Of a stretch of DNA of 23,131 bases, positions 3,366-19,449 are shown one piece after another (positions within the stretch are counted from its first letter, which is position 1; each line of letters opens with the position of its first letter). The notes under the pieces are model-generated. The model made no database searches, was not told the origin of the DNA, and saw nothing but the letters and a program-made list of their open reading frames with translations. The stretch comes from a virus: positions 1-23,131 of the IMG/VR virus record IMGVR_UViG_3300034283_001143; one strand, written 5' to 3'. Made by a program: the position numbers and the translations under genes.

Positions 3366-4310
3366 CTACTTATTATGCACTAAATAATTACCCGCAATAA
3401 ACCAATCTGCTGGCTCACAACTAAATTGATAAACAGTTGTGTCTTTTATTAATGGAGTTATAGTTTCAATTAAAACTTCTGTAAAACTTCCATCTTCATT
3501 TACTTGTATCAAATAATCTCCGACCTGTAGAGCCCCTGTTGGAACTACTTGATAAAAGTCATTTGATTTTGTAAACATTGGCTGACTAATTGAAAATAAT
3601 TTTTCTAAATCATCATTAAAATATATTACTTCGTTTTTTGCAAAAGGCTCTATAGCAACAATGCGTGTGGTTGTTTTGTTTAATGGTGTAAGAGTTTTTG
3701 AAATCATTCCTACATAATCAAAATCATATTGCCCTGTAATATCGCTTTGTGGAATTTCTAATAAATTAACGCTGTCAATTTCATCATCAACTTTTAGGTC
3801 TTTGGCTGCAATTGGGCCATTAGGTGTGCTAATTAAAGTGTTTTCATCTATGCAGTTTGGTGGCGTAAAACTAAAAGGCCCAGGATTTGGTGCAAAAGAA
3901 AAAACTGGAGTAAAGCCAAATGGGGTAAAACCAAATGGGGTAAAACCAAAAGAAACAACTGGGGTGAAACCAAAAGGAGTAAAACCAAAAGAAACAACTG
4001 GGGTAAAACCAAAAGCAACAACTGGGGTGAAACCAAAAGGAGTAAAACCAAATGCTCCGAATGGAGTAAAACTAAAAGTATAATTTACTAAATTTACATT
4101 AGTACCAACAGCCTGAACTTCTCCTGCCACAATGCTTTGAGATTTAATTGTGTTATTTAGCCCAGCATCTCCTGTGTTTTCGTTTGTTGTGTTATAAACA
4201 AAGCCAGCGTTAGTTAAATTTGTTTCTGCAGTAGTTTTTGCAACTCCAACTACGTTTGGTATTGAGTTTTTTCGTGATCCTTTATTTCCACGTCCGATAT
4301 TTTTTGCCAT
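3366..4310 (-). CDS. PASTA - FGFTP repeat - Hint autoprocessing protein
   Basis: A 314-residue protein in three parts. Residues about 17-77 are a PASTA domain (IPNVVGVAKTTAETNLTNAGF, then Q-S-x-x-AGEVQAVGTNVNL), a fold that binds peptidoglycan muropeptides in kinases and penicillin-binding proteins. Residues 78-150 are a phenylalanine-rich array with eight FGFTP units separated by VVA/VVS. Residues 153-313 look like a Hint domain: the candidate nucleophile Cys153 starts CIDENTLISTPNGPI, AAKDLKVDDEI follows, and the end is ADWFIAGNYLVHNK, the usual terminal block with His-Asn followed by one Lys. The expected chemistry is N-S acyl shift at Cys153, cutting the repeat segment off. The start at 4310 is used because it overlaps the upstream stop (TAATG); an upstream ATG at 4340 would add 10 residues inside the previous gene. 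Confidence 0.75.
   Translation of the reverse strand: MAKNIGRGNKGSRKNSIPNVVGVAKTTAETNLTNAGFVYNTTNENTGDAGLNNTIKSQSIVAGEVQAVGTNVNLVNYTFSFTPFGAFGFTPFGFTPVVAFGFTPVVSFGFTPFGFTPVVSFGFTPFGFTPFGFTPVFSFAPNPGPFSFTPPNCIDENTLISTPNGPIAAKDLKVDDEIDSVNLLEIPQSDITGQYDFDYVGMISKTLTPLNKTTTRIVAIEPFAKNEVIYFNDDLEKLFSISQPMFTKSNDFYQVVPTGALQVGDYLIQVNEDGSFTEVLIETITPLIKDTTVYQFSCEPADWFIAGNYLVHNK
3861..4078 (-). repeat. FGFTP-coding tandem repeat
   Basis: The DNA is built from 15-base units encoding FGFTP, singly or in pairs, spaced by 9-base VVS/VVA codons. Units are nearly identical at the DNA level, suggesting recent expansion and likely length variation between related phages. Confidence 0.85.
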
Positions 4311-4930
4311 TATGCAACCAAATCTCCCATAGCAACCCAAGTATTTGCTGCACGTTTTACTAGAGTTACGCTAGACCACTGTGCTCTAATTTTTAGACCT
4401 GGGGTAGCATTTACTGTAACTCCCGATGCTCCTGCAAGTGTAACTTGAGAAGAAGAAGTTTGTAAAATATCAATAGCAGTTCCAATTGGAAAGTCAACAC
4501 TAGAGTCAAGTGGGACCGTTAATGTTCCTCCAGCAGACATTTCTATCATTTTAAAAGAATCTGAAATAACAAGAGTGTAAGAAGATGATTGTTGATTAAA
4601 TGTGTATAAAGGATCTACGATTGATAACCAATTTGTTCCATCATAAACCTGTAAATCATTTATAACACTTCCGCCAGCATTTTGTTTTAAAAATATAATA
4701 GTTCCGTAAATTGGTGTTGGAATTGCTGCTAATGCTGCTGCTGGGTTTAAGAATATATTAACATTTTTTGCAATTACGGTAGAGTTTAAAGATACAGTTG
4801 AATCAAATGTTTGCCCTGCAGTCCAAGTGTATGCTGCTGCAGTGTTTACTTTACCTGCAAGTTCATACCACTGGTCGGTGGCTTCATCATAAACATATCC
4901 TGGCCTTGGTGTTGAATTAAATGTTGCCAT
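4310..4930 (-). CDS. Tail-fibre/virion protein with RPGYVYD N-terminal tag
   Basis: A 206-residue protein. The N terminus (RPGYVYDEATDQWYELAGKV) resembles a short attachment module found at the start of phage fibre proteins. A beta-rich region follows with TWTAGQTFDSTVSLNSTVI, VYDGTNWLSI and a C-terminal part resembling a fibre tip (GASGVTVNATPGLKIRAQW). No catalytic motif is seen. It overlaps both neighbours by one base, in a strongly coupled run of structural genes, so a minor virion or fibre component is the likely role. Confidence 0.6.
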   Translation of the reverse strand: MATFNSTPRPGYVYDEATDQWYELAGKVNTAAAYTWTAGQTFDSTVSLNSTVIAKNVNIFLNPAAALAAIPTPIYGTIIFLKQNAGGSVINDLQVYDGTNWLSIVDPLYTFNQQSSSYTLVISDSFKMIEMSAGGTLTVPLDSSVDFPIGTAIDILQTSSSQVTLAGASGVTVNATPGLKIRAQWSSVTLVKRAANTWVAMGDLVA

Positions 4931-6376: not shown

Positions 6377-6447
6377 CTTTGAGTGAAGGAATCGGACCTT
6401 CATTGTCAGGTTCGGAACCTGGGGTCCGACCATTAGACGAACTCAAA
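6377..6447 (-). tRNA. tRNA-Arg (anticodon CCG)
   Basis: A full cloverleaf of 71 nt fits the minus strand. The acceptor is TTTGAGT/ACTCAAA (7 bp), the D stem GTCT/GGAC with a GG-containing loop, and the anticodon arm CCAGG-TTCCGAA-CCTGA (one C-A mismatch at the stem base). The T arm is GAAGG-TCCGATT-CCTTC, with discriminator G and no encoded CCA. The anticodon CCG reads CGG arginine codons. Position 55 in the T loop is C rather than T, which is unusual. An extended -10 (TGGTATAAT) lies just upstream, so it may be transcribed on its own within the tail module. Confidence 0.75.
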
Positions 6448-11253: not shown

Positions 11254-11286
11254 TTATAGTTATCCTTTCAAGATACTTTCTTTATA

Positions 11287-11331
11287 CCCCCTAGTCTAGC
11301 AGGGGGGACTGACATTTTGGGGACTTTCCCC
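11287..11331 (-). promoter_or_regulatory. Two GC-rich hairpins in the leftward 5' leader
   Basis: CCCCCT (11287-11292) pairs with AGGGGG (11301-11306) across an 8-base loop, and GGGG (11319-11322) pairs with CCCC (11328-11331) across ACTTT. Both stand out in an AT-rich leader and lie just upstream of the first leftward gene. No U-run follows, so a simple terminator is unlikely. Confidence 0.45.
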
Positions 11332-11342
11332 TAGTGTCGTGG

Positions 11343-11358
11343 TGTGAGATACCTCACT
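11343..11358. promoter_or_regulatory. CRP/GlxR-like site 1
   Basis: TGTGAGATACCTCACT: both half-sites of TGTGA-N6-TCACA with one mismatch. Confidence 0.5.
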
Positions 11359-11361
11359 TAA

Positions 11362-11481
11362 TTGCTACGCTCATCCTATTGCTAGGCTTATTTGGTAGGC
11401 TCATTGAGGCTATCTAATCTCTAACTCACTTACTTGCTAGGCTCATCCTCTTATCGAGGGTTATTTGCTAGGCTCATTGAG
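11362..11481 (-). repeat. Five imperfect 16-17 bp repeats in the leftward leader
   Basis: Copies start at 11362, 11379, 11392, 11434 and 11465, with plus-strand core TTGCTAGGCTCAT. On the transcribed minus strand each reads near ATGAGCCTAGCAA, some starting very short reading frames (M-S-L-A...). They could be iterons or leader elements. Confidence 0.7.
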
Positions 11482-11510
11482 TCTGCTTCTTTATTTTTTT
11501 GTATAATGGA

Positions 11511-11539
11511 ATTATAGCAGAGATAACCCCAAAAGTCAA
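11511..11539 (-). promoter_or_regulatory. Leftward early promoter
   Basis: On the minus strand TTGACT (11534-11539), a 17-base spacer, and TATAAT (11511-11516). The predicted start is near 11504. Confidence 0.75.
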
Positions 11540-11571
11540 GACGACACGCCGTAAATAACACGCATGTAATT

Positions 11572-11587
11572 AGTGATATACACCACA
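11572..11587. promoter_or_regulatory. CRP/GlxR-like site 2 (weak)
   Basis: AGTGATATACACCACA: one mismatch in each half-site. Confidence 0.35.
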
Positions 11588-11603
11588 CGACAATTCGGAC
11601 ATA
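11588..11603 (-). repeat. TGTCCG element, minus-strand copy
   Basis: The minus strand reads TATGTCCGAATTGTCG, the mirror of the plus copy at 11716-11731, each on the upstream side of its own promoter. Confidence 0.5.
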
Positions 11604-11615
11604 TTGGACATGTAG

Positions 11616-11636
11616 CCCGGCGCTATCGGGTGTGTC
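11616..11636 (+). repeat. GC-rich cassette element, copy 1
   Basis: CCCGGCGC-TATC-GGGTGTGTC; compare 12234-12254 and 13525-13545, which have the same N4 spacing. Confidence 0.55.
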
Positions 11637-11644
11637 TGAGAGAG

Positions 11645-11653
11645 TTATCCACA
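11645..11653 (+). promoter_or_regulatory. DnaA box 1
   Basis: Perfect TTATCCACA, running straight into a CRP/GlxR-like half-site. Confidence 0.6.
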
Positions 11654-11667
11654 TGATATAGATCACA
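11652..11667. promoter_or_regulatory. CRP/GlxR-like site 3, overlapping DnaA box 1
   Basis: CATGATATAGATCACA; the right half-site is perfect. Confidence 0.45.
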
Positions 11668-11686
11668 TACCCATTTCACGCTTAAG

Positions 11687-11695
11687 TTATCCACA
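11687..11695 (+). promoter_or_regulatory. DnaA box 2
   Basis: Perfect TTATCCACA, 42 bases after box 1 (four helical turns) and in the same composite context. Confidence 0.6.
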
Positions 11696-11709
11696 TGACC
11701 TACATCACA
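11694..11709. promoter_or_regulatory. CRP/GlxR-like site 4, overlapping DnaA box 2
   Basis: CATGACCTACATCACA; the right half-site is perfect. Confidence 0.45.
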
Positions 11710-11715
11710 CGACAC

Positions 11716-11731
11716 AATGTCCGATTTGTCC
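11716..11731 (+). repeat. TGTCCG element, plus copy 1
   Basis: AATGTCCGATTTGTCC: two GTCC units 9 bases apart. Related copies are at 14655, 15524 and 17424. Confidence 0.6.
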
Positions 11732-11749
11732 TACCTACTAGTCAGTAAA

Positions 11750-11771
11750 TGTCAGTGGTAGGTGTTATACT
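11750..11771 (+). promoter_or_regulatory. Rightward early promoter, TGTCnG-N10 class, copy 1
   Basis: TGTCAG, 10 bases, TATACT; the leader contains ATAAAGAAAG. The class recurs at 12348, 12775 and 13617. Confidence 0.6.
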
Positions 11772-11822
11772 TCTAGTATAAAGAAAGTTGAGAAAGGTTC
11801 TCAAACTTAGAAAGGAATTCAA

Positions 11823-11996
11823 ATGAATTCAGTTATAAATAAAGTGTGTAAGCATACACCTAATAAAAATGCTATCTCTATCGTTAATGACGAAAGATTT
11901 ACCTTCTGCGAGAATTGTGAGCAGAATATAACTTCTCACTATCGTGAGGATAATGACTTCATGTCTTATTGGACTTCTTGGAAAGTTGGTAAGTAA
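11823..11996 (+). CDS. Small zinc-finger-like protein, 57 aa
   Basis: The product begins MNSVINKVCKHTPNKNAISI and contains FCENCEQ. C9, H11, C29 and C32 could bind zinc. An AAAGGA ribosome site precedes it. It is the first gene of the rightward early operon after the control region. The function is unknown. Confidence 0.6.
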   Translation: MNSVINKVCKHTPNKNAISIVNDERFTFCENCEQNITSHYREDNDFMSYWTSWKVGK

Positions 11997-12098
11997 ATGA
12001 TAGATTTATTTTGTAAAGTTTGCGATGGCTTTGTGCTATCGCTTCCTGCTGATGAAGCAGAAGACTTAACTGTTAAATGTTCTAGTTGTTGGGAATAA
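11997..12098 (+). CDS. 33-residue zinc-ribbon peptide
   Basis: The ATG directly follows the previous stop. The product, MIDLFCKVCDGFVLSLPADE and then LTVKCSSCWE, has two C-x2-C knuckles 19 residues apart, a minimal zinc ribbon. The function is unknown. Confidence 0.6.
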   Translation: MIDLFCKVCDGFVLSLPADEAEDLTVKCSSCWE

Positions 12099-12102
12099 TA
12101 AA

Positions 12103-12228
12103 ATGTTAAAAGAAATAAAAAACAAAATTATTCGTATTCAAGAATTGCGTCGTAGTAATGCTGCGACTCCAATTCCAAATAAAAAAAAGTATTCAAGAAA
12201 AACAAAACATAAAAATAAATTGCAATAA
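12103..12228 (+). CDS. 41-residue strongly basic peptide
   Basis: MLKEIKNKIIRIQELRRSNA followed by a Lys/Arg-rich tail (NKKKYSRKTKHKNKLQ). It probably binds nucleic acid. It follows the previous stop by four bases and is the last gene before the GC-rich cassette element. Confidence 0.55.
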   Translation: MLKEIKNKIIRIQELRRSNAATPIPNKKKYSRKTKHKNKLQ

Positions 12229-12233
12229 AAAAA

Positions 12234-12254
12234 CCCGGCGCACCTGGCGTGTCG
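12234..12254 (+). repeat. GC-rich cassette element, copy 2
   Basis: CCCGGCGC-ACCT-GGCGTGTCG, five bases after the operon's last stop codon. Confidence 0.6.
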
Positions 12255-12263
12255 TACACAGGC

Positions 12264-12272
12264 TGTGGATAA
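12264..12272 (-). promoter_or_regulatory. DnaA box 3
   Basis: TGTGGATAA on the plus strand, a perfect TTATCCACA on the minus strand, between the GC element and the next CRP/GlxR-like site. Confidence 0.55.
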
Positions 12273-12283
12273 CTTACGTACGA

Positions 12284-12299
12284 TGTGATTTTTCTCACA
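12284..12299. promoter_or_regulatory. CRP/GlxR-like site 5 (perfect half-sites)
   Basis: TGTGATTTTTCTCACA. Confidence 0.65.
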
Positions 12300-12347
12300 A
12301 GACTTGAGCGTCTCATTATTTGGAATTACTGGCTAGTAGGTTGTAAA

Positions 12348-12369
12348 TGTCTGCTAATTCTGATAGACT
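12348..12369 (+). promoter_or_regulatory. TGTCnG-N10 promoter, copy 2
   Basis: TGTCTG, 10 bases, TAGACT; the leader has ATAAAGAAAGG. Confidence 0.55.
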
Positions 12370-12406
12370 TACGGAGTAAGAAAATAAAGAAAGGAAGTGG
12401 CTAACA

Positions 12407-12610
12407 ATGGCTAACTTATACACAATAGAAAATCTCCTAGTGGGAAAAACTTATAACTCAAAAACTTTGTCTGGAGAAATTGTCTCAGCAGAGAAATCTA
12501 ATCAACCAATTTGGTATGGAGAAAATACGGAAGCGTATTTGGTAGAAATTTTTTCTCCTCATACTTTGCGTAATAAATACCGCACAATTGCGGTGAAGGT
12601 TGGTGAATAA
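12407..12610 (+). CDS. Small SH3-like beta protein, 67 aa
   Basis: The product opens MANLYTIENLLVGKTYNSKT and then LSGEIVSAE, with a closing RTIAVKVGE strand. The 'xVGxTYxSKxxxGxIV' pattern recurs in the proteins at 15674-15844 and 16433-16603, suggesting three diverged copies of a small barrel. Such barrels often bind RNA, DNA or protein termini; the role here is unknown. The ribosome site is AAAGGAAG. Confidence 0.6.
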   Translation: MANLYTIENLLVGKTYNSKTLSGEIVSAEKSNQPIWYGENTEAYLVEIFSPHTLRNKYRTIAVKVGE

Positions 12611-12612
12611 TA

Positions 12613-12735
12613 ATGGGATATATTGAGATATTTCGCCTTGATGAACAAGGTGCTGGGTGGGTTGACCTTTCTGAGGCTACCCCCGCAGAATTGCTTGACC
12701 TAGAAATTGGCTTATTCCAAGAAGGGGCTTTGTGA
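12613..12735 (+). CDS. 40-residue acidic peptide
   Basis: MGYIEIFRLDEQGAGWVDLS followed by an acidic helix (EATPAELLDLEIGLFQEGAL). It starts two bases after the previous stop. Its stop codon lies within CRP/GlxR-like site 6. The function is unknown. Confidence 0.55.
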   Translation: MGYIEIFRLDEQGAGWVDLSEATPAELLDLEIGLFQEGAL

Positions 12736-12746
12736 GATAAATCACA
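12731..12746. promoter_or_regulatory. CRP/GlxR-like site 6 (perfect half-sites)
   Basis: TGTGAGATAAATCACA matches TGTGANNTANNTCACA fully. Confidence 0.7.
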
Positions 12747-12774
12747 AGGCAACACACCCCCCGCAGGTTGAAAA

Positions 12775-12796
12775 TGTCGGTGGGATTTGATAGGAT
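12775..12796 (+). promoter_or_regulatory. TGTCnG-N10 promoter, copy 3
   Basis: TGTCGG, 10 bases ending TTTGA, TAGGAT; the leader has ATAAAGAAAGG. Confidence 0.55.
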
Positions 12797-12830
12797 AGTC
12801 TTATCAAACAATAAAGAAAGGTGGTCAGAA

Positions 12831-13013
12831 ATGACTTACACTATAAAACTAGAAACCTATAATGGCGCAGTAAAAAATATTTACTTAACCACTAAAGGAC
12901 AAGTGGCTGAGTTTATTAACACTTATCCAAACCAATTACCTGTTGGCGTATCTGTTAAATTAGATTGCGATATGCTAGGGATTAGAGGAACGCTAAGAGG
13001 TAAAAAACAATGA
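12831..13013 (+). CDS. Small beta-alpha protein, paralogue of the 10644-10829 gene
   Basis: A 60-residue protein, MTYTIKLETYNGAVKNIYLT onward, with AEFINTYPNQLPVGVSVKL and GIRGTLRGKK. It aligns end to end with the leftward protein at 10644. The ATG at 12831 is chosen over a frame opening at 12768 because the promoter, leader and AAAGGTGG ribosome site lie between them. The function is unknown. Confidence 0.65.
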   Translation: MTYTIKLETYNGAVKNIYLTTKGQVAEFINTYPNQLPVGVSVKLDCDMLGIRGTLRGKKQ

Positions 13014-13159
13014 TTAACTCTGTTATGCGTTTTGATTGTAATGATTGCAATGGGCAAGGTCTTATCTTTTGGGGTAATGACCTTGACTACAATGTGGAAA
13101 AATGCGAGTGTAATGATTTCGCACTAGGAACTTTATTTACTACGAAAGAGGCTGACTAA
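13010..13159 (+). CDS. DnaJ-type zinc-finger peptide, 49 aa
   Basis: FDCNDCNGQGLIFWGNDLDY and EKCECN give C-x2-C-x-G-x-G ... C-x-C, a single DnaJ-like zinc knuckle. It is closely related to the protein at 13663-13827. The ATG overlaps the previous stop (ATGA), and the stop abuts the next ATG. Confidence 0.65.
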   Translation: MINSVMRFDCNDCNGQGLIFWGNDLDYNVEKCECNDFALGTLFTTKEAD

Positions 13160-13351
13160 ATGACTAGAAAAGACTATATCAAAACCGCAAACATATTGGC
13201 TGGATTTGTAGATGAAGTTCCACAAAACACTTATGAAGATTTAGTTCAAGAGTTTGCTGAGTGGTTCAAATCAGATAACGAAAACTTTGACTTTGCAAGA
13301 TTTGAAAAGGCTTGCGGAATTGATGAGATTGGATTAATAAATGTTAACTAA
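13160..13351 (+). CDS. Conserved small phage protein, 63 aa
   Basis: Helical throughout: MTRKDYIKTANILAGFVDEV, then LVQEFAEWFKSDNENFDFAR and FEKACGID. Proteins opening M-[ST]-R-K-D-Y are common in actinobacterial phages as small helical proteins of unknown function. It starts directly after the previous stop. Confidence 0.65.
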   Translation: MTRKDYIKTANILAGFVDEVPQNTYEDLVQEFAEWFKSDNENFDFARFEKACGIDEIGLINVN

Positions 13352-13493
13352 TTTAGATGTGATTGCAATAATAATTGCGCTACTTGGTTGCTTAACTGTT
13401 ATGGGTTTATTTTGGAAACAAAATATTGCACAACAAAAAGAAATTCGCAGATTGCAAATTGCGTTGCGAACTGAGCGACTTAAAAACAAATAA
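13341..13493 (+). CDS. 50-residue membrane protein with basic coil
   Basis: A membrane helix at residues 6-24 (DVIAIIIALLGCLTVMGLF) is followed by a charged helix (KQNIAQQKEIRRLQIALRTE). It overlaps the previous gene by 11 bases. It is the last gene of its operon. Confidence 0.55.
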   Translation: MLTNLDVIAIIIALLGCLTVMGLFWKQNIAQQKEIRRLQIALRTERLKNK

Positions 13494-13524
13494 ACAAAAG
13501 GCCCTAGAACATACGTTCGAAAGG

Positions 13525-13545
13525 CCCGGCGCTGACGGCGTGTCG
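13525..13545 (+). repeat. GC-rich cassette element, copy 3
   Basis: CCCGGCGC-TGAC-GGCGTGTCG, about 30 bases after the operon's last stop. Just upstream is a small inverted repeat, GAAC-ATAC-GTTC. Confidence 0.6.
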
Positions 13546-13563
13546 CAATCAATAGTCTTTACG

Positions 13564-13579
13564 TGTGGTTAAGATCACA
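13564..13579. promoter_or_regulatory. CRP/GlxR-like site 7
   Basis: TGTGGTTAAGATCACA; one mismatch. Confidence 0.5.
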
Positions 13580-13616
13580 CCCCAGATTCTCCAGATTATG
13601 GTGTCTAATTAGATTT

Positions 13617-13638
13617 TGTCGGTTGTATCTGATAGGAT
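13617..13638 (+). promoter_or_regulatory. TGTCnG-N10 promoter, copy 4
   Basis: TGTCGG, 10 bases ending TCTGA, TAGGAT; the leader has ATAAAGAAAG. Confidence 0.55.
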
Positions 13639-13662
13639 AAAGATATAAAGAAAGAAGGCAAA

Positions 13663-13827
13663 ATGGGTAAAGTAAAAGCAAGCGTAATGGATATATTGGA
13701 GTGCGATAGTTGTTATGGCTATGGTTGGCAATTCGTAGGAAATGCTATAGACTATGATGTATGGGCGTGCGAGTGTAATCCTTACAATATCCCTGCCGAC
13801 AACCTACTAGATTGGAAACTAAACTAA
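13663..13827 (+). CDS. DnaJ-type zinc-finger peptide, second copy, 54 aa
   Basis: ILECDSCYGYGWQFVGNAID, then YDVWACECNPYNI. It has the same C-x2-C-x-G-x-G ... C-x-C pattern and the same intervening [FW]xGNxxDYxV as the protein at 13010. It leads a new operon, with an AGAAGG ribosome site. Confidence 0.65.
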   Translation: MGKVKASVMDILECDSCYGYGWQFVGNAIDYDVWACECNPYNIPADNLLDWKLN

Positions 13828-14036
13828 TGGAATATACTTATTCACTTACTACTTCGTATGACGGAGAGTTAATTCATACCCTGCGAGTTAGCGATTTGTT
13901 TGACGCCGTTCATGCTTGGGATAAATGCGTGGACTATGGCTTTGCTAAAGAATACGCAACCTATAACTTGTCTGACCCAACAGGTAAGATGTATACTAAA
14001 ACCTTCTACACCAACGGAAAGGTATCAATTAAATAA
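13827..14036 (+). CDS. Small phage protein, 69 aa
   Basis: The product is MEYTYSLTTSYDGELIHTLR onward and ends YTKTFYTNGKVSIK, mostly beta with a central helix (DLFDAVHAWDKCVDYGFA). The ATG overlaps the previous stop (TAATG); a TTG at 13812 is less likely. The function is unknown. Confidence 0.6.
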   Translation: MEYTYSLTTSYDGELIHTLRVSDLFDAVHAWDKCVDYGFAKEYATYNLSDPTGKMYTKTFYTNGKVSIK

Positions 14037-14320
14037 TGGGATCAATAACAGCAATAGGTTTAGCAGATACAACGCTAGACCTAGAAACACAATTAAAGTA
14101 TCACTTGCAAGGTAATCATTATCCACCAATACCAACAGTAATGGTGCAGCCTTGCATCGAGGCTATTGACGCTTACTATGATGAGGACTACTCTCGTAAA
14201 ATAGAGTTGCCAATTGTTGATGGATTCCAGATTAGTTGGAAGGGTAATACTTGGACTACCGCTAGTGCATTGGTATCACACGCACACCTAGAGTGGTTTA
14301 TCGAGCCAGTAGATGAGTAA
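14036..14320 (+). CDS. Small phage protein, 94 aa
   Basis: The first half is helical (LETQLKYHLQGNHYPPIPTV). The end has ELPIVDGFQISWKGNTWTTA, then LVSHAHLEWFIEP. It is coupled by TAATG overlap to the previous gene. No family is recognised. Confidence 0.6.
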   Translation: MGSITAIGLADTTLDLETQLKYHLQGNHYPPIPTVMVQPCIEAIDAYYDEDYSRKIELPIVDGFQISWKGNTWTTASALVSHAHLEWFIEPVDE

Positions 14321-14405
14321 AGACTTGCAAGATAAACTAGATGCAGTTGCGCTAATCTTAGAGCCTATTCTATGGGAAACACTAGCAGAAATTGAGGAAC
14401 AATGA
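14313..14405 (+). CDS. 30-residue acidic helix peptide
   Basis: MSKDLQDKLDAVALILEPIL and then WETLAEIEEQ form one amphipathic helix. It overlaps both neighbours by 8 and 4 bases, so it is probably coupled. Confidence 0.5.
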   Translation: MSKDLQDKLDAVALILEPILWETLAEIEEQ

Positions 14406-14641
14406 AAACATTAGAAAACGATGATATTATTCTAATTATGGATTACTATAAAGTTGATATGTTAACTGCAGGACAGTTAATGGTTGACGATAACATTCTT
14501 GTTGATGGCGAGGTTGTTTGTATTACTGAAATAATTTCATTAGCCGATGGATACACTTTAGAAATTATAAATGATTTTGGTGAAAGAGATACTATTGAAG
14601 TTTCTGAGTATCAGCAATTTGATTTAATGATGTTGAAATAA
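14402..14641 (+). CDS. Small beta-barrel-like protein, 79 aa
   Basis: An N-terminal helix is followed by MVDDNILVDGEVVCITEIIS, LADGYTLEIINDFGERDTIE and a final DLMMLK. This could be a small SH3-like or KOW-like barrel. The ATG overlaps the previous stop. It is followed by a CCCGG-containing element and a TGTCCG element. Confidence 0.55.
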   Translation: MKTLENDDIILIMDYYKVDMLTAGQLMVDDNILVDGEVVCITEIISLADGYTLEIINDFGERDTIEVSEYQQFDLMMLK

Positions 14642-14654
14642 GAGGCGCCCGGCC

Positions 14655-14670
14655 AATGTCCGTTTTGTCC
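14655..14670 (+). repeat. TGTCCG element, plus copy 2
   Basis: AATGTCCGTTTTGTCC, upstream of the GP88-like gene's promoter. Confidence 0.6.
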
Positions 14671-14691
14671 CATTTTGTTAATTACGTATAC

Positions 14692-14720
14692 TTGTATTTT
14701 TCCCCTAAAAATGTTATACT
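14692..14720 (+). promoter_or_regulatory. Promoter for the GP88-like gene, leaderless
   Basis: TTGTAT, 17-base spacer containing TTTTTCCCC, TATACT, then five bases to the ATG at 14726. Confidence 0.65.
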
Positions 14721-14725
14721 TAATT

Positions 14726-15448
14726 ATGACCCAATTAAAGAGATCGCATGATAGAAAGGTCGCTAACCTTGTTACAAAAAATGGAAAGCAAGCCGCAATT
14801 GCAAACACGTTCGGATTACCCGCAGGAAAAAACTTTTCATGTCCTGGTGCTACGTCTATCTGCGAGACTGTTTGCTACGCTGGGAAACTTGAAAAACTAT
14901 TCAAAGGAGTAAAGGCTAACCTCCTTCACAATTGGGAGTTATTAAAAGACGCAGACGAATCAACTATGATAAGTCTATTAGATAATATGATTAATGATTT
15001 TAAAAAAGATTGTGAAAAGAAAAAAGCCCCACTACTATTTCGCATTCATTGGGACGGTGATTTCTTTAATGACACGTACACCAAAGCATGGAAGCAGATC
15101 ATCCTTAACAATGCAGATATAAAATTTTGGGTATATACACGAGTAGAAGCAGCAGCCTTAATGCTTAAGGGTATTGATAATCTATCTTTATACTATTCAA
15201 CAGATAGCGAGAATAAGCAAATAGGTGTTAGTTTAAAGAAAGATCATGGAGTGCGCCTTGCATACCTTGCACAGAATTTTGCTATAGGTCAAGCAGATAT
15301 GAAAAAATTGTTTGATAAACCTGGCGCTAAGTGTCCTGAGAACCTAAAAGCCATTCCCCTAATCTCAAATGCTGGAAGTGCTTGCGTATCATGCGGATTG
15401 TGTGTATACTCTAAAAGCGATATTGTTTTCTCATCATCTAAAAAATAA
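14726..15448 (+). CDS. GP88-family Cys-rich protein
   Basis: A 240-residue protein. FGLPAGKNFSCPGATSIC at 29-46 and ETVCYA at 47-52 supply C39, C46 and C50. LLFRIHWDGDFFNDTYTKAW follows in the middle, and C203, C220, C223 and C226 lie near the end (ACVSCGLCVYS). The pattern 'SCPGA...C..VCYA', then 'R-x-H-x-x-GDF...Y-x-x-W', is that of the phage gene-product-88 family, whose biochemical role is unsettled. The clustered cysteines suggest a metal or iron-sulfur site. The start is placed at 14726, after the -10 box; a longer frame from 14675 would run through the promoter. Confidence 0.7.
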   Translation: MTQLKRSHDRKVANLVTKNGKQAAIANTFGLPAGKNFSCPGATSICETVCYAGKLEKLFKGVKANLLHNWELLKDADESTMISLLDNMINDFKKDCEKKKAPLLFRIHWDGDFFNDTYTKAWKQIILNNADIKFWVYTRVEAAALMLKGIDNLSLYYSTDSENKQIGVSLKKDHGVRLAYLAQNFAIGQADMKKLFDKPGAKCPENLKAIPLISNAGSACVSCGLCVYSKSDIVFSSSKK

Positions 15449-15458
15449 GGAGTGGTGC

Positions 15459-15524
15459 TTGGAACTCTTAATAGGACTATCAATTATATTCGTCTATTTA
15501 TTGTTTGCTGGTCTAGGACACTAA
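15459..15524 (+). CDS. 21-residue membrane peptide (TTG start)
   Basis: TTG at 15459 after an AAGGAG ribosome site gives (M)ELLIGLSIIFVYLLFAGLGH, a single hydrophobic helix. The good ribosome site and composition support it, although it is very short. Confidence 0.45.
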   Translation: MELLIGLSIIFVYLLFAGLGH

Positions 15525-15539
15525 ATGTCCGTTTTGTCC
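15524..15539 (+). repeat. TGTCCG element, plus copy 3
   Basis: AATGTCCGTTTTGTCC, identical to the copy at 14655. Confidence 0.6.
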
Positions 15540-15554
15540 GTTTCTATACGCTGG

Positions 15555-15570
15555 TGTGAGATACATCACA
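15555..15570. promoter_or_regulatory. CRP/GlxR-like site 8 (perfect half-sites)
   Basis: TGTGAGATACATCACA matches TGTGANNTANNTCACA fully. A second inverted repeat, ATCTCA-AAATA-TGAGAT, follows at 15579-15595. Confidence 0.7.
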
Positions 15571-15610
15571 GATATCACATCTCAAAATATGAGATTATTA
15601 GAAATATAAC

Positions 15611-15639
15611 TTGTATTTTTGACCAAATAATGTTATTCT
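15611..15639 (+). promoter_or_regulatory. Promoter for the 15674 gene
   Basis: TTGTAT, 17-base spacer, TATTCT. Confidence 0.55.
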
Positions 15640-15673
15640 TAGGTAGTAAGCCAAACCAACAAGAAGGAGAACC

Positions 15674-15844
15674 ATGTCCGTATCAACCGCAACATACAAA
15701 GTAGGCGACACCTACACATCACAAAAATCAAAGGTAGTAGGAACTATTACCGAAATCGTGCCAACTAACAAAAACACAGTTCGTGTTAAGTTAGATGTAG
15801 CAGGACAAACACGCTGGACAACTTGGACAGCAAAGAACGCTTAA
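15674..15844 (+). CDS. Small SH3-like beta protein, 56 aa
   Basis: MSVSTATYKVGDTYTSQKSK, then VVGTITEIVPTNKNTVRVKL: an all-beta protein. It aligns with the protein at 16433 (TYQLGDLFTTSKTGITGRIV) over its whole length and more weakly with that at 12407. AAGGAG lies seven bases before the ATG. The function is unknown. Confidence 0.65.
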   Translation: MSVSTATYKVGDTYTSQKSKVVGTITEIVPTNKNTVRVKLDVAGQTRWTTWTAKNA

Positions 15845-15869
15845 TCTTAGCCTAGTGGCTAAATGTCCT

Positions 15870-15892
15870 GAGCATGACAACTAAAACTGCTC
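15870..15892 (+). ncRNA. GAGCA/TGCTC hairpin element, copy 1
   Basis: TCCT-GAGCA, a 13-base loop starting TGA and containing TAAAA, then TGCTC. It lies 26 bases after a stop codon. One of four copies; the type (RNA element or DNA site) is not settled. Confidence 0.5.
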
Positions 15893-15923
15893 AACTTAAT
15901 ACCAGAAACGGAAACCCATCACA

Positions 15924-16346
15924 ATGGCAAGAAGCAAACCCATCAGCGTAAAAATCGCTACTGCTAAGGTTATTACAGCCTTAGAAAACAGATTAGCCGA
16001 ACTAGAGGCTAACTATAAAACACAAGACGAGAACGAGGCAAAGTTCCAAACCCAAATAGACGCTTGGAAAAAAGAACTATTTGCTTTTGCTATCGCTAAT
16101 GTTTCTAAGGCAGAAAACCTTAGAACTAACTATCGCCAATGGAACAACAACCTTAATGTTGATTTTGATTTAACAGTTAAAGAAGGCGAGTTCCCTGCTG
16201 AACCTGAGCGTAAGTTTGAGCAAATCCATGTTCATACTTATCGTGAGCAGAAAGAGGAAATGGAAAACGCTATCCGTATCCTTAAAATGACCGACGAGGA
16301 AACAGTTAGCACTAGCACATATAACGCTATCGCTAGATACCTTTAA
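15924..16346 (+). CDS. Coiled-coil phage protein, 140 aa
   Basis: The N-terminal half is a long helix (VITALENRLAELEANYKTQD, then EAKFQTQIDAWKKELFAFAI). A short beta part (DFDLTVKEGEFPAEPERKF) and a second helix region follow. It resembles small helical proteins of actinobacterial phages of unknown function. The ribosome site is weak. The hairpin at 15870 is only about 30 bases upstream of the ATG. Confidence 0.65.
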   Translation: MARSKPISVKIATAKVITALENRLAELEANYKTQDENEAKFQTQIDAWKKELFAFAIANVSKAENLRTNYRQWNNNLNVDFDLTVKEGEFPAEPERKFEQIHVHTYREQKEEMENAIRILKMTDEETVSTSTYNAIARYL

Positions 16347-16349
16347 TAG

Positions 16350-16377
16350 TTTGGGGGTATTTGACTATGCCCCCAAA
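16350..16377. terminator. Terminator-like hairpin TTTGGGGG/CCCCCAAA
   Basis: A perfect 8-bp stem with a 12-base loop, four bases after the stop at 16346, flanked by A and T tracts. It could stop transcription in either direction. Confidence 0.55.
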
Positions 16378-16389
16378 ATATGTTAGACT
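16361..16389 (+). promoter_or_regulatory. Promoter overlapping the hairpin
   Basis: TTGACT (16361-16366) lies in the hairpin loop, with a 17-base spacer and TAGACT (16384-16389) upstream of the 16433 gene. Confidence 0.5.
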
Positions 16390-16432
16390 AGATAAGTAAT
16401 GACCCAAACCCAAACAGAAAGGCAAGACCCAA

Positions 16433-16603
16433 ATGACACTAGGCGGATACACATACCAACTAGGTGATTTATTCACCACAAGCAAAACAGGTATTACAGG
16501 TAGAATTGTAAAGTTCTCACCTATTAACTCTAAGACCACTAGAGTATCCTTACAATTAGCAAATGGCGCAAGACGCCTTGCTATGGTAAGCACAACTAAA
16601 TAA
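16433..16603 (+). CDS. Small SH3-like beta protein, 56 aa
   Basis: MTLGGYTYQLGDLFTTSKTG, then ITGRIVKFSPINSKTTRVSL. It has the same length and strand pattern as the 15674 protein (TYKVGD...KVVGTI...NTVRVKL), a clear duplication. An AGAAAGG ribosome site lies upstream. The function is unknown. Confidence 0.65.
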   Translation: MTLGGYTYQLGDLFTTSKTGITGRIVKFSPINSKTTRVSLQLANGARRLAMVSTTK

Positions 16604-16660
16604 TTTATCTCTGATAAGCACTTGGCTCATCTGCTAAGTTATTCCTGAGATAAGACTCCT

Positions 16661-16682
16661 GAGCATGAGTTCTAAACTGCTC
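16661..16682 (+). ncRNA. GAGCA/TGCTC hairpin element, copy 2
   Basis: TCCT-GAGCA, 12-base loop TGA...TAAAC, TGCTC; 58 bases after a stop codon. Confidence 0.5.
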
Positions 16683-16715
16683 ACCTTTTAATTGCCCCGC
16701 AAAAACCCGGGCACA

Positions 16716-16731
16716 TGTGATGTAGATCACG
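16716..16731. promoter_or_regulatory. CRP/GlxR-like site 9
   Basis: TGTGATGTAGATCACG; one mismatch, central TA present. It follows a CCCGGGC motif. Confidence 0.55.
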
Positions 16732-16763
16732 TCCCACTATGTGAGACTAATTAAGAACTGAAC

Positions 16764-16792
16764 TTGCATTTCACAGGCCATGGTGATATTAT
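16764..16792 (+). promoter_or_regulatory. Promoter for the 16818 gene
   Basis: TTGCAT, 17-base spacer, TATTAT. Confidence 0.55.
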
Positions 16793-16817
16793 TGTATTAA
16801 CAGAAAAGGAACCCCTA

Positions 16818-17315
16818 ATGAGCGAAGTAATGTTACAAGATCAGTTAACTGTTTCTTATAATCCCAACCTACTTGTGACCTACAAGTATATACCTGAACT
16901 GACACCTTCACATGGTGTGCAACTAGGGGAAGAGCCAGCAGCAACATTCATGACTGATAAAGTTACTGAGATTGAATGGCAACTTCATAAGTCACGAGAG
17001 TATGCAGCAAGATCATCTGCATTGGCTGCAGAGCGACGTGGTGACATTGAGTGGCTTGAAGAGCACATTGTTGAATGGTATGACCCAAACTATTCCAAAG
17101 AAGAAGTTTTAAAAGCGCTAGCAGAACACTTTGCTATTAATCCTATGAAGGAGATTAGCGTATACGGAACTGTTACATTCAGCGGAACAATACAGGTGCC
17201 ACTGGATGAGGTTGAAGATTTTGACCTAAGCAATGTAACCATTGACGCAGAAATAAGTTCATATGACTATGAAGCGGACCTAACTGTGGACGATGTATCA
17301 CTGGAAGAGAACTAA
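16818..17315 (+). CDS. Phage protein with helical N half and acidic beta C half, 165 aa
   Basis: A central helix (EIEWQLHKSREYAARSSALA, then ERRGDIEWLEEHIVEW) is followed by a beta domain, EISVYGTVTFSGTIQVPLDE, and a very acidic tail. The C-terminal pattern 'ISVYGTVTFSGTIxVP' recurs in actinobacterial phage proteins of unknown function. The start is at 16818, after the promoter and an AAAGGA ribosome site; an upstream ATG at 16764 lies in the -35 region. Confidence 0.65.
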   Translation: MSEVMLQDQLTVSYNPNLLVTYKYIPELTPSHGVQLGEEPAATFMTDKVTEIEWQLHKSREYAARSSALAAERRGDIEWLEEHIVEWYDPNYSKEEVLKALAEHFAINPMKEISVYGTVTFSGTIQVPLDEVEDFDLSNVTIDAEISSYDYEADLTVDDVSLEEN

Positions 17316-17378
17316 TAAGAGATCTGTAGCATCCGCTGCAGGGACCGTTTAAATTTGATAGGGGGCTATCAAGATCCT

Positions 17379-17399
17379 GGACATGATCATAAACTGTCC
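17379..17399 (+). ncRNA. Hairpin element, copy 3, with compensatory stem GGACA/TGTCC
   Basis: TCCT-GGACA, 11-base loop TGATCATAAAC, TGTCC. Both arms differ from the other copies in a way that keeps pairing. Confidence 0.55.
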
Positions 17400-17423
17400 T
17401 ATTAAAATGCCCGGCCCGCCCGA

Positions 17424-17439
17424 AATGTCCGATTTGTAC
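17424..17439 (+). repeat. TGTCCG element, plus copy 4
   Basis: AATGTCCGATTTGTAC, one base off the copy at 11716. Confidence 0.55.
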
Positions 17440-17475
17440 TATTTAAGAAGATTAAACCATTTCCCCCAATCCTAT

Positions 17476-17504
17476 TTGACATTGTCAGCCATGACTGCTA
17501 AACT
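17476..17504 (+). promoter_or_regulatory. Promoter for the DUF932 gene
   Basis: TTGACA, 17-base spacer, TAAACT. Confidence 0.6.
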
Positions 17505-17530
17505 TAGTTAAAACGATCGAAAGGAAAAAA

Positions 17531-18547
17531 ATGGCCCATGAGTTAGAAACTCAAAACGGTGTGGCAAGTTTTGCATCATTCCGTGAACCTGCATGGCACA
17601 ATCTTGGTACTGTATTTGATACTGAGAAAAACACTAACGAAATGTTAGTTGCTGCTAATCTTAATAATTGGAATGTTAGACTAGAGGATTTAGAAATCCC
17701 ATCTAGTTTAGTATCTGACAAACAATATCAATATGTTGTTCGCACAAATCCTACTGACAAATCTCAAACTGATGTTTTGGGAATTGTTGGTGAGCGTTAT
17801 GTTCCACTACAAAATGAAGATTTATTTTCATTCGGTGATAATATTCTTGATGGTGGTGGACGATGGGAAACTGCTGGCTCTCTTAAGGGTGGGCGTGTAG
17901 TATTTGGCTCTCTTGCATTAGAGCGTGAAACTGTATTAGACCCAAATGGTGTGGCAGATGTTGTTAAAACTTATTTGCTTATCAACACATCACACGATGG
18001 CTCAATCGCTATTCAAGCAAGCATAACACCCGTTCGTGTTGTGTGCGCTAATACTCTTAATGTTGCACTTAACCGTACACGCAAGAAAGATGGCGTCAAG
18101 CAATCTTTCAAAATCCGTCATACTCAAACTGCTCAGGGCAAAGTTGCTGTTGCTCGTCAAGCATTAGGTATGGCTAATTCATACATGGACGCATTTGATA
18201 AAATGGCTCATGCTATGATAACAAAAGAAATCACCGCACAAGATTTCAATAACATTATTCTTGCTGCATATCCTAAACCTGAAACCGATAGCAAGGGCTC
18301 TCTAAAGAAATGGGAAAACAAAGTAGATATGATTAACGATATCTATACTGGAGAGTTTAACGGAATGATTAGTGGAAATGCTTGGGGTGCGTTCAATGCA
18401 CTAACTGAGCGTTTAGACTGGTATCGTTCTGCTCGTGGTGGTAATAGCGAAAGCATGTTTGCTGCTGCTTCTGGATTTGACCCTGTAATAAATGCAGAGA
18501 AAAATCGTTTGCTAACTATTGTTCAAAATACTTTGCAACTAGTTTAG
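17531..18547 (+). CDS. DUF932 / TIGR03299 phage-plasmid-like protein
   Basis: A 338-residue protein with the family's landmarks. The N-terminal SFREPAWHNLGTVF is followed by VVRTNPTDKSQTDVLGIVGERYVPLQNEDLF across residues about 69-99. Then come GGRWETAGSLKGGRVVFGSL, LLINTSHDGSIAIQASITPV and RVVCANTLNVAL. The length is normal for the family, and the C terminus includes NAWGAFNALTERLDWYRSAR. Members are widespread in phages and plasmids, often near recombination or replication genes; the biochemical function is unknown. An AAAGGAAAAAA ribosome site and its own promoter precede it, and hairpin copy 4 follows 13 bases after the stop. Confidence 0.85.
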   Translation: MAHELETQNGVASFASFREPAWHNLGTVFDTEKNTNEMLVAANLNNWNVRLEDLEIPSSLVSDKQYQYVVRTNPTDKSQTDVLGIVGERYVPLQNEDLFSFGDNILDGGGRWETAGSLKGGRVVFGSLALERETVLDPNGVADVVKTYLLINTSHDGSIAIQASITPVRVVCANTLNVALNRTRKKDGVKQSFKIRHTQTAQGKVAVARQALGMANSYMDAFDKMAHAMITKEITAQDFNNIILAAYPKPETDSKGSLKKWENKVDMINDIYTGEFNGMISGNAWGAFNALTERLDWYRSARGGNSESMFAAASGFDPVINAEKNRLLTIVQNTLQLV

Positions 18548-18559
18548 CAATAAAATCCT

Positions 18560-18580
18560 GAGCATGATTTAAAACTGCTC
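18560..18580 (+). ncRNA. GAGCA/TGCTC hairpin element, copy 4
   Basis: TCCT-GAGCA, 11-base loop TGATTTAAAAC, TGCTC. It lies between the DUF932 gene and the tRNA. Confidence 0.5.
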
Positions 18581-18584
18581 CGCT

Positions 18585-18658
18585 GGTCCCATAGATCAAT
18601 TGGTTAGATCGTTACCCTGTCACGGTAAAGGCTACGGGTTCAAGTCCCGTTGGGATCG
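18585..18658 (+). tRNA. tRNA-Asp (anticodon GTC)
   Basis: A full 74-nt cloverleaf. The acceptor is GGTCCCA/TGGGATC (7 bp with one G-T), D stem GATC/GATC, anticodon arm TTACC-CTGTCAC-GGTAA, T arm ACGGG-TTCAAGT-CCCGT, discriminator G, and CCA is not encoded. It lies four bases after hairpin copy 4 and may be processed from the DUF932 transcript. Confidence 0.9.
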
Positions 18659-18717
18659 CAAGTGGGCCCGGGCATGACTATTTAAATAATAACACACAAT
18701 TGTTTCATTAAGAACGC

Positions 18718-18746
18718 TTGACTTTTTTCCCAGTTGCCTGTAAAAT
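18718..18746 (+). promoter_or_regulatory. Promoter for leaderless 18753 gene
   Basis: TTGACT, 17-base spacer with TTTTTCCCAGTT, TAAAAT, six bases to the ATG. The spacer motif recurs at 19466. Confidence 0.65.
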
Positions 18747-18752
18747 ATTAAT

Positions 18753-18974
18753 ATGACCCTAAACGTAGAAATATATGAAATGGATTACTCATGCTCTCCT
18801 GGTGGAGTTAACTGTTGGGAAGTATCTATTGACGAGTGGTGTGTCTCTGATTTTAAAACCGCAGGGGACGCAATACAATACGTGCTTGACAAATACCCTT
18901 ATGATGAGTTAAACTTAAATGTAAAATCCCTTAACTGGTACTTTAAGGAGTATGCAGATGATTACGCAGTTTAA
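18753..18974 (+). CDS. Small acidic phage protein, 73 aa
   Basis: MTLNVEIYEMDYSCSPGGVN, then CWEVSIDEWCVSDFKTAGDA and a helix ending LNWYFKEYADDYAV: a beta-beta-alpha pattern. It has a leaderless start and is the first gene of an operon running to 19438. The function is unknown. Confidence 0.6.
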   Translation: MTLNVEIYEMDYSCSPGGVNCWEVSIDEWCVSDFKTAGDAIQYVLDKYPYDELNLNVKSLNWYFKEYADDYAV

Positions 18975-19119
18975 ACCCAAAACCATAAACCAATTAGTAG
19001 AAACCATATACGAGGATAATTTCTCACACCTAGATCTAATAGACAACATGGCTAGCGGTGATTGTGATTGTCGTATCCATATCACTCTTAATACTATCTT
19101 AGAATATTGGGGTGAGTAA
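18958..19119 (+). CDS. Small phage protein, 53 aa
   Basis: MITQFKPKTINQLVETIYED onward, with GDCDCRIH and a C-terminal ILEYWGE. The ATG at 18958 is preferred over 18952 because it lies seven bases after AAGGAG. It overlaps the previous gene by 17 bases in another frame. Confidence 0.5.
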   Translation: MITQFKPKTINQLVETIYEDNFSHLDLIDNMASGDCDCRIHITLNTILEYWGE

Positions 19120-19283
19120 TGTCAATGCTAGGGTATGAAAGAGATGATTTAGATAATATGGTTCTTGCAGTTGAATCTGCTCTAACTACCGTGAATTCTG
19201 ACGATGATCCTTGGCTACACAGAAACCTTACACAAGCCTCTGACTTCTTGCAAGGCCTATGGGCAGAGGGGTACTTTGAATAA
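19119..19283 (+). CDS. Small acidic helical protein, 54 aa
   Basis: MSMLGYERDDLDNMVLAVES onward, ending FLQGLWAEGYFE. It is coupled to both neighbours by TAATG overlaps. The function is unknown. Confidence 0.55.
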   Translation: MSMLGYERDDLDNMVLAVESALTTVNSDDDPWLHRNLTQASDFLQGLWAEGYFE

Positions 19284-19438
19284 TGGCTCCTCAATATTCT
19301 CAAGACCACGGTGCAATTATAGATAAAATTATGGAACTTATAAACACAGATGGTGAGGTCCTGTCTGATGAAGAGGTTGTTAATAGTATTAGGGGACTTC
19401 TTGAAGAGAACCCTCAAACCTATTGGGGTGGAGTGTGA
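19283..19438 (+). CDS. Small acidic helical protein, 51 aa
   Basis: MAPQYSQDHGAIIDKIMELI and then SDEEVVNSIRGLLEENP, a two-helix pattern. Its stop codon lies within CRP/GlxR-like site 10. Confidence 0.55.
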   Translation: MAPQYSQDHGAIIDKIMELINTDGEVLSDEEVVNSIRGLLEENPQTYWGGV

Positions 19439-19449
19439 TGTAGATCACC
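19434..19449. promoter_or_regulatory. CRP/GlxR-like site 10
   Basis: TGTGATGTAGATCACC; one mismatch, central TA present. It lies just upstream of the next -35 box. Confidence 0.55.

Follow-up and report, generated by a model that had tools for sequence, protein, structure and literature searches.

Can a phage place many of its operons under a CRP/GlxR-type regulator of its host? The question is raised by positions 1-23,131 of IMG/VR record IMGVR_UViG_3300034283_001143 (this whole stretch of 23,131 nucleotides is called the window below), for which the first-pass annotation reported ten palindromes of the form TGTGA-N6-TCACA and proposed that they serve operon promoters.

CRP-like palindromes in the window

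All ten palindromes are present, each beginning at the coordinate under which it had been reported. Three have perfect half-site pairs as claimed (12284, 12731 and 15555), and both sites said to match the GlxR consensus TGTGANNTANNTCACA (PMC4254451), 12731 and 15555, do so. Their described location also held: site 12731 overlaps the stop codon of the gene that ends at 12735, site 19434 does so for the gene that ends at 19438, and the others are intergenic; spurious-looking minus-strand ORFs overlap 11572, 11652, 12284 and 12731. The features are listed here with the distance from site centre to +1; start sites were predicted, and all +1 distances rest on this prediction.

11343-11358, no strand assigned: CRP-like site TGTGAGATACCTCACT, 1 mismatch, adjoining the iteron-like repeats; serves a leftward promoter (-10 TAGACT 11298-11293, TGTCAG 11314-11309) at ~64.5 bp
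11362-11476, plus strand: five iteron-like repeats of TTGCTAGGCTCA (11362, 11379, 11392, 11434, 11465), belonging to a candidate origin of replication
11572-11587, no strand assigned: weak CRP-like site AGTGATATACACCACA, 2 mismatches, in the origin region; no class I distance
11645-11667, plus strand: DnaA box TTATCCACA (11645-11653) overlapping CRP-like site CATGATATAGATCACA (11652-11667)
11687-11709, plus strand: DnaA box (11687-11695) overlapping CRP-like site CATGACCTACATCACA (11694-11709); 76.5 bp upstream of the predicted +1, -10 TATACT 11766-11771, gene 11823
12264-12299, no strand assigned: minus-strand DnaA box (12264-12272) and perfect CRP-like site TGTGATTTTTCTCACA (12284-12299); promoter TTGTAA 12341 / TAGACT 12364, 84.5 bp, gene 12407
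12731-12746, no strand assigned: perfect CRP-like site TGTGAGATAAATCACA, overlapping the stop codon of gene 12613-12735; promoter TTGAAA 12768 / TAGGAT 12791, 64.5 bp, gene 12831
13564-13579, no strand assigned: CRP-like site TGTGGTTAAGATCACA; promoter TAGATT-TTGTCGG 13610 / TAGGAT 13633, 73.5 bp, gene 13663
15555-15570, no strand assigned: perfect CRP-like site TGTGAGATACATCACA; promoter TTGTAT 15611 / TATTCT 15634, 83.5 bp, gene 15674
16716-16731, no strand assigned: CRP-like site TGTGATGTAGATCACG; promoter TTGCAT 16764 / TATTAT 16787, 75.5 bp, gene 16818
19434-19449, no strand assigned: CRP-like site TGTGATGTAGATCACC, overlapping the stop codon of gene 19283-19438; promoter TTGTAA 19460 / TAAAAT 19483, 53.5 bp, gene 19519

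The palindromes are more frequent than chance allows, and the original observation is confirmed in a stronger form than first claimed. Three perfect sites occur in the window against 0.02 expected, and seven sites with at most one mismatch against 1.04 expected by shuffling; neither count was reached in any of 100 shuffles, so that site density does not equal that of shuffled sequence. Sites with two mismatches were not significantly enriched in the window (16 versus 12 expected, a count reached in 18 of 100 shuffles), and 11572, 11652 and 11694 are thus weak on sequence alone. Across 80 related loci in IMG/VR, the exact palindrome was counted 243 times, compared with 0-4 occurrences for other spacer lengths and 0-11 for permuted half-sites. 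The perfect palindrome was found in 334 distinct contexts versus 0-8 for permuted palindromes. Base frequencies in the spacer (T preferred and A avoided at position 6, A/T at the centre) agree with the GlxR consensus (PMC4254451). LacI-type operators have half-sites about 4 bases apart, and a LacI-type identity was rejected on that ground.

Helical phasing of sites and promoters

Eight of the ten sites stand at class I-type distances from a promoter, including 11343, whose promoter points leftward. The exceptions are 11572 and 11652, for which the closest rightward promoter is ~198 and ~118 bp away. The promoters have the form TTGnnn-17-TAnnnT, and TGTCnG often follows directly on the -35 element. 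The 65-85 base range first given for site-to-start distances resolves into discrete values of 53.5, 64.5, 73.5-76.5 and 83.5-84.5 bp. Overall, site centres lie ~53.5, 64, 74 or 84 bp upstream of the predicted start, and the phasing peaks are at 53, 63-64, 73-75 and 83-85.

This periodicity was assessed with independent promoters counted either by downstream gene family or as greedy leaders below 60% identity. When each downstream gene family was represented by a single modal value, R was 0.90 at 10.5 bp, which none of 5000 random sets reached; the 53-54 bp class contributed 9 of the 26 modal values. Greedy leaders gave an R of 0.34, reached in 7 of 3000 random sets. Clustering promoter DNA by single linkage was dropped, with 605 of 644 promoters falling into one cluster; the 15 values left over from it showed no phasing. 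Within one gene family, the site shifts by whole turns (63/73/83 or 64/74/84). Leftward promoters keep the same register in relatives (29 contexts at 64 and 7 at 74). Control motifs were less phased (R 0.11-0.47 versus 0.63), and the 10-bp phasing holds for the original set of relatives and also beyond it. An IMG/VR scan in which the gap was left free (22-52, with a recount at gaps 15-60) yielded 310 unique contexts, nearly all at gaps 27-29, 33-34, 37-41 and 47-50, and none at gaps 22-26, 30-32, 35-36, 42-46 and 51-58. A half-turn-off minority (gap 33-34) made up ~11% of the contexts.

These distances also bear on the direction of regulation. A CRP-like protein could act as a repressor of these operons, as CRP does at T1 pir (PMC6737242), but the sites stand 53-85 bp ahead of the predicted starts, off the -35 and -10 elements and helically phased, and we regard repression as very improbable.

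Retention of sites at operon heads

The palindromes are conserved in related phages. For the operon-head genes behind seven window sites, the site was kept in 12-100% of cases (at least 42% in six of the seven), compared with only 0-1% before operon-internal genes. It was present in all 58 distinct upstream regions of gene 12407 orthologues, and in 91% of 64 upstream regions for gene 12831, 55% of 40 for gene 13663, 72% of 83 for gene 15674 and 79% of 24 for gene 16818. Operon-head genes retain the site even among diverged orthologues. Among cultured phages with DUF932 or GP88, 9 of 10 lacked a perfect site; no phage genome matched the window by megablast, and we found no close cultured member of this phage lineage.

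Class I-type activation by a CRP/GlxR-type regulator, as originally suggested, is strongly supported by the N6 geometry, the spacer preferences, retention at operon heads only and the 10-bp phasing; protein binding and alpha-CTD contact are inferred from these sequence features. Many near-perfect sites are clustered in one block, and such packing might be expected of decoys that titrate host CRP off its own targets during infection. However, decoys need neither helical phasing nor retention at operon heads, and the candidate host genome offers few competing sites, which leaves titration scarcely credible.

Sites in the origin-like region

Sites 11572 and 11652 lie in an origin-like array with DnaA boxes, and 11652 and 11694 form a 42-bp-spaced repeat adjoining these boxes. 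Relatives carried the iteron 12-mer in 123 exact copies, compared with 0-2 copies of permuted 12-mers, and DnaA boxes were enriched (571 versus 22-39 for permuted 9-mers). A DnaA box stood at a fixed offset of +7 to a CRP-like site in 53 unique contexts. This enrichment, the fixed offset and the nearby iterons raise the possibility that the sites at 11572-11709 and 12284 serve mainly in replication initiation with DnaA and not in transcription, which would be compatible with class I activation elsewhere. This role covers at most four of the ten sites, 11694 and 12284 also stand at promoter distances, and the fixed DnaA offset could reflect common descent. We therefore consider it possible but rather unlikely.

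Source of the activator

The regulator had been suggested to be either a host CRP/GlxR or the phage's own version. The latter is disfavored: neither the cNMP-binding domain (PF00027) nor the Crp helix-turn-helix domain (PF13545) was detected in any of 21 related phage contigs (56-118 kb; contigs may be incomplete). In the absence of a CRP-family protein in these contigs, the activator is probably the host's GlxR/CRP, with binding inferred and no binding data available. WhiB, an actinophage indicator (PMC10202952), was present in 18 of the 21 contigs and, together with the actinophage-typical genes GP88 and DUF932, met the criteria for actinophages.

GlxR-like proteins with a GASRETVNKAL recognition helix are widespread in sampled Actinomycetota, and the candidate host lineage has GlxR orthologs with this helix. 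The link to this host is a single 4.7-kb contig in one MAG, and it was not strengthened by a search of the candidate host's order, in which a phage gene was found in 1 of 296 genomes. Perfect sites were almost absent from the candidate host lineage (3 in 18 genomes). In one candidate host genome, motif counts were below those of most permuted motifs and no host regulon was seen; none of its best 20 sites, and 2 of its best 40, were intergenic. No class III adenylate cyclase (PF00211) was detected in 19 genomes of the lineage, which is not established as the host. If the host has no detectable enzyme of this class, the signal to GlxR might not be cAMP.

Most proteins encoded in the phage block have no known function, and one of them could be a regulator of unrelated fold that recognizes a palindrome resembling the CRP site and turns on promoters of the phage itself. 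The scarcity of such sites and the apparent lack of class III adenylate cyclase in the candidate host lineage would fit this idea. Yet such a regulator would have had to converge on the spacing and spacer preferences of CRP, the sites are phased as in class I activation by CRP, and GlxR-like proteins with the matching helix are common in the Actinomycetota sampled; an unrelated fold thus appears unlikely.

Discussion

We consider it likely that a host GlxR-type protein activates these phage operons in class I fashion, although binding, activation, ligand, early timing and host are all inferred. The palindromes would be binding sites of a GlxR-type activator of the CRP/FNR family supplied by the actinobacterial host. 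A dimer sitting at least one helical turn upstream of a primary-sigma promoter would present its activating surface on the same DNA face as RNA polymerase and may recruit it, as at class I CRP promoters. One such module appears to head the divergent leftward operon and many operons of the block that lies rightward of the putative origin; the block's transcription would therefore be tied to the activity of the host metabolic regulator.

Class I CRP sites in E. coli are positioned in steps of ~10 bp, and promoters such as lac and malT share with the phage a CRP palindrome placed upstream of a sigma70 promoter in steps of about one turn (PMC10882989). Unlike these, the phage has many operons so arranged, TGTCnG after the -35 element and an activator that is not identified. 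Its register (-53.5/-64/-74/-84 from the predicted +1) is ~2.5 bp off the E. coli positions -61.5, -71.5, -81.5 and -91.5, with an extra 53.5 class nearer to the promoter than -61.5. GlxR of Corynebacterium glutamicum and CRP of M. tuberculosis, which are mostly activators (PMC4254451), share the consensus, and their recognition-helix sequence is identical in the candidate host lineage; however, they regulate host metabolic genes. No phage regulon of this size under GlxR/CRP was found in the literature searched. In phage T1, host CRP also controls phage transcription by metabolic state (PMC6737242), but pir involves few promoters, repression and a temperate decision, whereas the many phased sites described here suggest activation. 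WhiB-bearing freshwater actinophages such as the Planktophila phages (PMC10202952) share with the present lineage the habitat, WhiB and probable actinobacterial hosts; the isolates are ~39 kb, compared with contigs of up to 118 kb in the present lineage.

A broader proposal, plausible but tentative, is a clade-wide host-GlxR regulon covering the early region of freshwater actinophages and perhaps the DnaA-box origin, with sites stronger than those of the candidate host genome, through which phage development reads host metabolic state.

An uncultured family of freshwater actinophages thus appears to switch on many gene clusters via the CRP/GlxR-type master regulator of its host. In the literature found, phages described before rely on host CRP for no more than a few promoters; here, many operons across a phage clade seem to share one activator, a global metabolic regulator of the host. 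Natural sequence variation displays a helical phasing familiar from experiments with synthetic promoters, and the phased palindromes provide a computational marker for this phage group. They also offer a connection, open to direct testing, from the nutritional state of freshwater Actinobacteria to phage development.

Phage affiliation and palindromes of the window

The window is a linear IMG/VR virus fragment of 23,131 bases. Two of its genes have relatives mostly in phages of Actinobacteria:

14726-15448, GP88 gene
17531-18547, DUF932 gene

WhiB, described in the literature as an indicator of actinophage (PMC10202952), was present in 18 of 21 long relatives (contigs of 56-118 kb). The perfect palindrome TGTGA-N6-TCACA was absent from 9 of 10 cultured phage isolates bearing DUF932 or GP88, and its arrangement thus marks an uncultured lineage. 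The window also carries tRNA-Asp (gtc; 18585-18659, plus strand), tRNA-Arg (ccg; 6377-6447, minus strand) and a protein (3366-4340, minus strand) in which GFTPF repeats come after a PASTA domain and the C-terminal part seems Hint-like by eye.

All ten CRP/GlxR-like palindromes listed in the first-pass annotation were found at their positions. Three were perfect (0.02 expected) and seven had at most one mismatch (1.04 expected). At two mismatches the window count did not exceed chance, so sites 11572, 11652 and 11694 (named by start) need support from elsewhere. Sites 11652 and 11694 make up a repeat with 42-bp spacing, and a perfect DnaA box overlaps each of them.

Conservation in related phages

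Two IMG/VR scans yielded 158 related loci. In the 80 found by DUF932 (1.32 Mb), TGTGA-N6-TCACA occurred 243 times, compared with 0-4 occurrences for half-site spacers of 2-5 and 7-11 and at most 11 for permuted half-sites. Across all related loci, 334 distinct perfect contexts were detected versus 0-8 for permuted palindromes; in long contigs listed whole, perfect sites were confined to one block of up to ~10 kb. Spacer position 6 preferred T and avoided A and the centre was A/T, preferences like those of the GlxR consensus (PMC4254451).

Retention in related phages, which had been set as a test of the palindromes, was borne out when 220 bases upstream of orthologues of window genes (named by start) were examined regardless of site presence. 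For the genes behind seven window sites, the fractions with a site were 100% (12407), 91% (12831), 79% (16818), 72% (15674), 55% (13663), 42% (11823) and 12% (19519), versus 0-1% in shuffled sequence. Operon-internal genes (13160, 13827, 14036, 14402, 15924, 19119, 20409 and 20887) also gave 0-1%. DUF932 (51%) and 16433 (48%) have an upstream site in many relatives that is absent in the window.

Helical phasing to promoters

Distances from palindrome centre to predicted +1 in the window were:

11343, leftward promoter, 64.5
11694, 76.5
12284, 84.5
12731, 64.5
13564, 73.5
15555, 83.5
16716, 75.5
19434, 53.5

Eight of the ten sites lie at 53.5-84.5, compared with the spacing of about 65-85 bases first proposed for the TGTCnG promoters; 11572 and 11652 have no class I distance to a promoter. 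The promoter used for 13564 was not top-scoring and that for 11694 is weak at -35, so both assignments lean partly on relatives. Leftward promoters of the 11343 type in relatives had distances of 64 (29 contexts) or 74 (7 contexts). At 11751, 12347, 12775 and 13617 (plus strand) and 11314-11309 (minus strand), promoters have TGTCnG immediately downstream of the -35 hexamer, with 10 bases between it and the -10.

When promoters were predicted downstream of sites (TTG-16/18-TAnnnT), distances peaked at 53, 63-64, 73-75 and 83-85, and sites shifted by whole turns inside the 15674 (63/73/83) and 12407 (64/74/84) gene families. With one modal value per downstream gene family (n=26), phasing strength R was 0.90 at 10.5 bp, reached by none of 5000 random sets. 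These 26 families are an upper limit on independent cases, as some may share one promoter; DNA clustering was uninformative as a count of independent promoters. With a stricter leader set R was 0.34, a value attained by 7 of 3000 random sets, and control motifs near the same promoters were phased less (R 0.11-0.47 vs 0.63).

A further IMG/VR scan (palindrome, free gap of 22-52, TGTCAG, N10, TA), without selection by gene content, was recounted at gaps 15-60 and gave at least 310 unique contexts, at least 292 of them outside earlier loci. Among the matches listed, at least 83 had gaps of 27-29, 104 of 37-41, 73 of 47-50 and 10 of 59-60; none had gaps of 22-26, 30-32, 35-36, 42-46 or 51-58. At least 35 listed matches had gaps of 33-34, which puts them out of phase by half a turn. 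Of 8 displayed examples of this class, 6 had a TGTCC-type motif immediately after the palindrome, and a second factor may thus be involved.

Candidate origin and other recurring elements

11254-11822, 569-base gap between divergent genes, with five iteron-like repeats and two DnaA boxes

We infer that this gap is a candidate replication origin. In relatives, DnaA boxes were ~20 times commoner than permuted 9-mers, and a fixed +7 offset of DnaA box to CRP-like site occurred in 53 contexts.

A second motif, TGTCCG(A/T)TTTGT(C/A)C, precedes operons at 11718, 14657, 15526 and 17426 (plus strand). Its relaxed form was found in 139 distinct contexts in relatives versus 0 for two permuted forms, and it lay directly 3' of the palindrome in most off-phase examples displayed. 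It is possibly a site for a phage repressor or activator.

Hairpins follow genes at:

15870-15892
16661-16682
17389-17409
18560-18580

The 5-bp stem is GAGCA/TGCTC, GGACA/TGTCC or, in relatives, GGCCA/TGGCC, and the loop TGA...TAAAAC is conserved. Since both stem sides vary together, a conserved RNA element is suggested, on sequence grounds.

Binding protein and host

Neither PF00027 (cNMP-binding domain) nor PF13545 (Crp HTH) was found in the 21 long phage contigs. Of the two regulators first proposed, the phage's own version is disfavoured by this result, and a host GlxR/CRP is the probable activator, by inference. The sole genome-collection match of the phage gene, 82% identical, was on a 4.7-kb contig from an actinomycetotal MAG, where a site precedes a 16818-type operon. 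Most relatives of this MAG (mostly ~1-1.8 Mb; the candidate host lineage) encode a single GlxR-like protein, whose helix GASRETVNKAL is the same as that stretch of the solved M. tuberculosis CRP. Almost no perfect palindromes occur in this lineage; in one genome motif counts were below most permuted motifs, and none of the 20 best motif sites was intergenic. Class III adenylate cyclase was not found in 19 genomes of the lineage. In G022-G046, genomes of this streamlined lineage, a GlxR-like CRP is retained despite the scarce CRP motif and no detected class III adenylate cyclase. The main open point is whether the host lies elsewhere, strong targets of this GlxR are few in the host, or the sites are bound by a different protein.

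Mode of action

Steps of 10 bp mean that the protein, once bound, has to lie on the side of the helix turned towards RNA polymerase. Site positions are equally regular at class I CRP promoters of E. coli (PMC10882989). The absolute register in the phage is ~2.5 bp apart and there is an extra -53.5 class; these differences may stem from the start sites being predictions, not measurements, or from a polymerase of another type. A CRP-like protein could instead repress these operons, or the sites could act as decoys, but neither action predicts phasing. Activation, which the phasing favours, is therefore the best reading of the phased palindromes, with start sites that are predicted. The core of the class I CRP/GlxR-type interpretation is supported by phasing, motif and conservation, while binding has not been shown. 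Class I CRP-type promoters are of a known kind; here they would serve as a shared switch for many operons across a phage clade.
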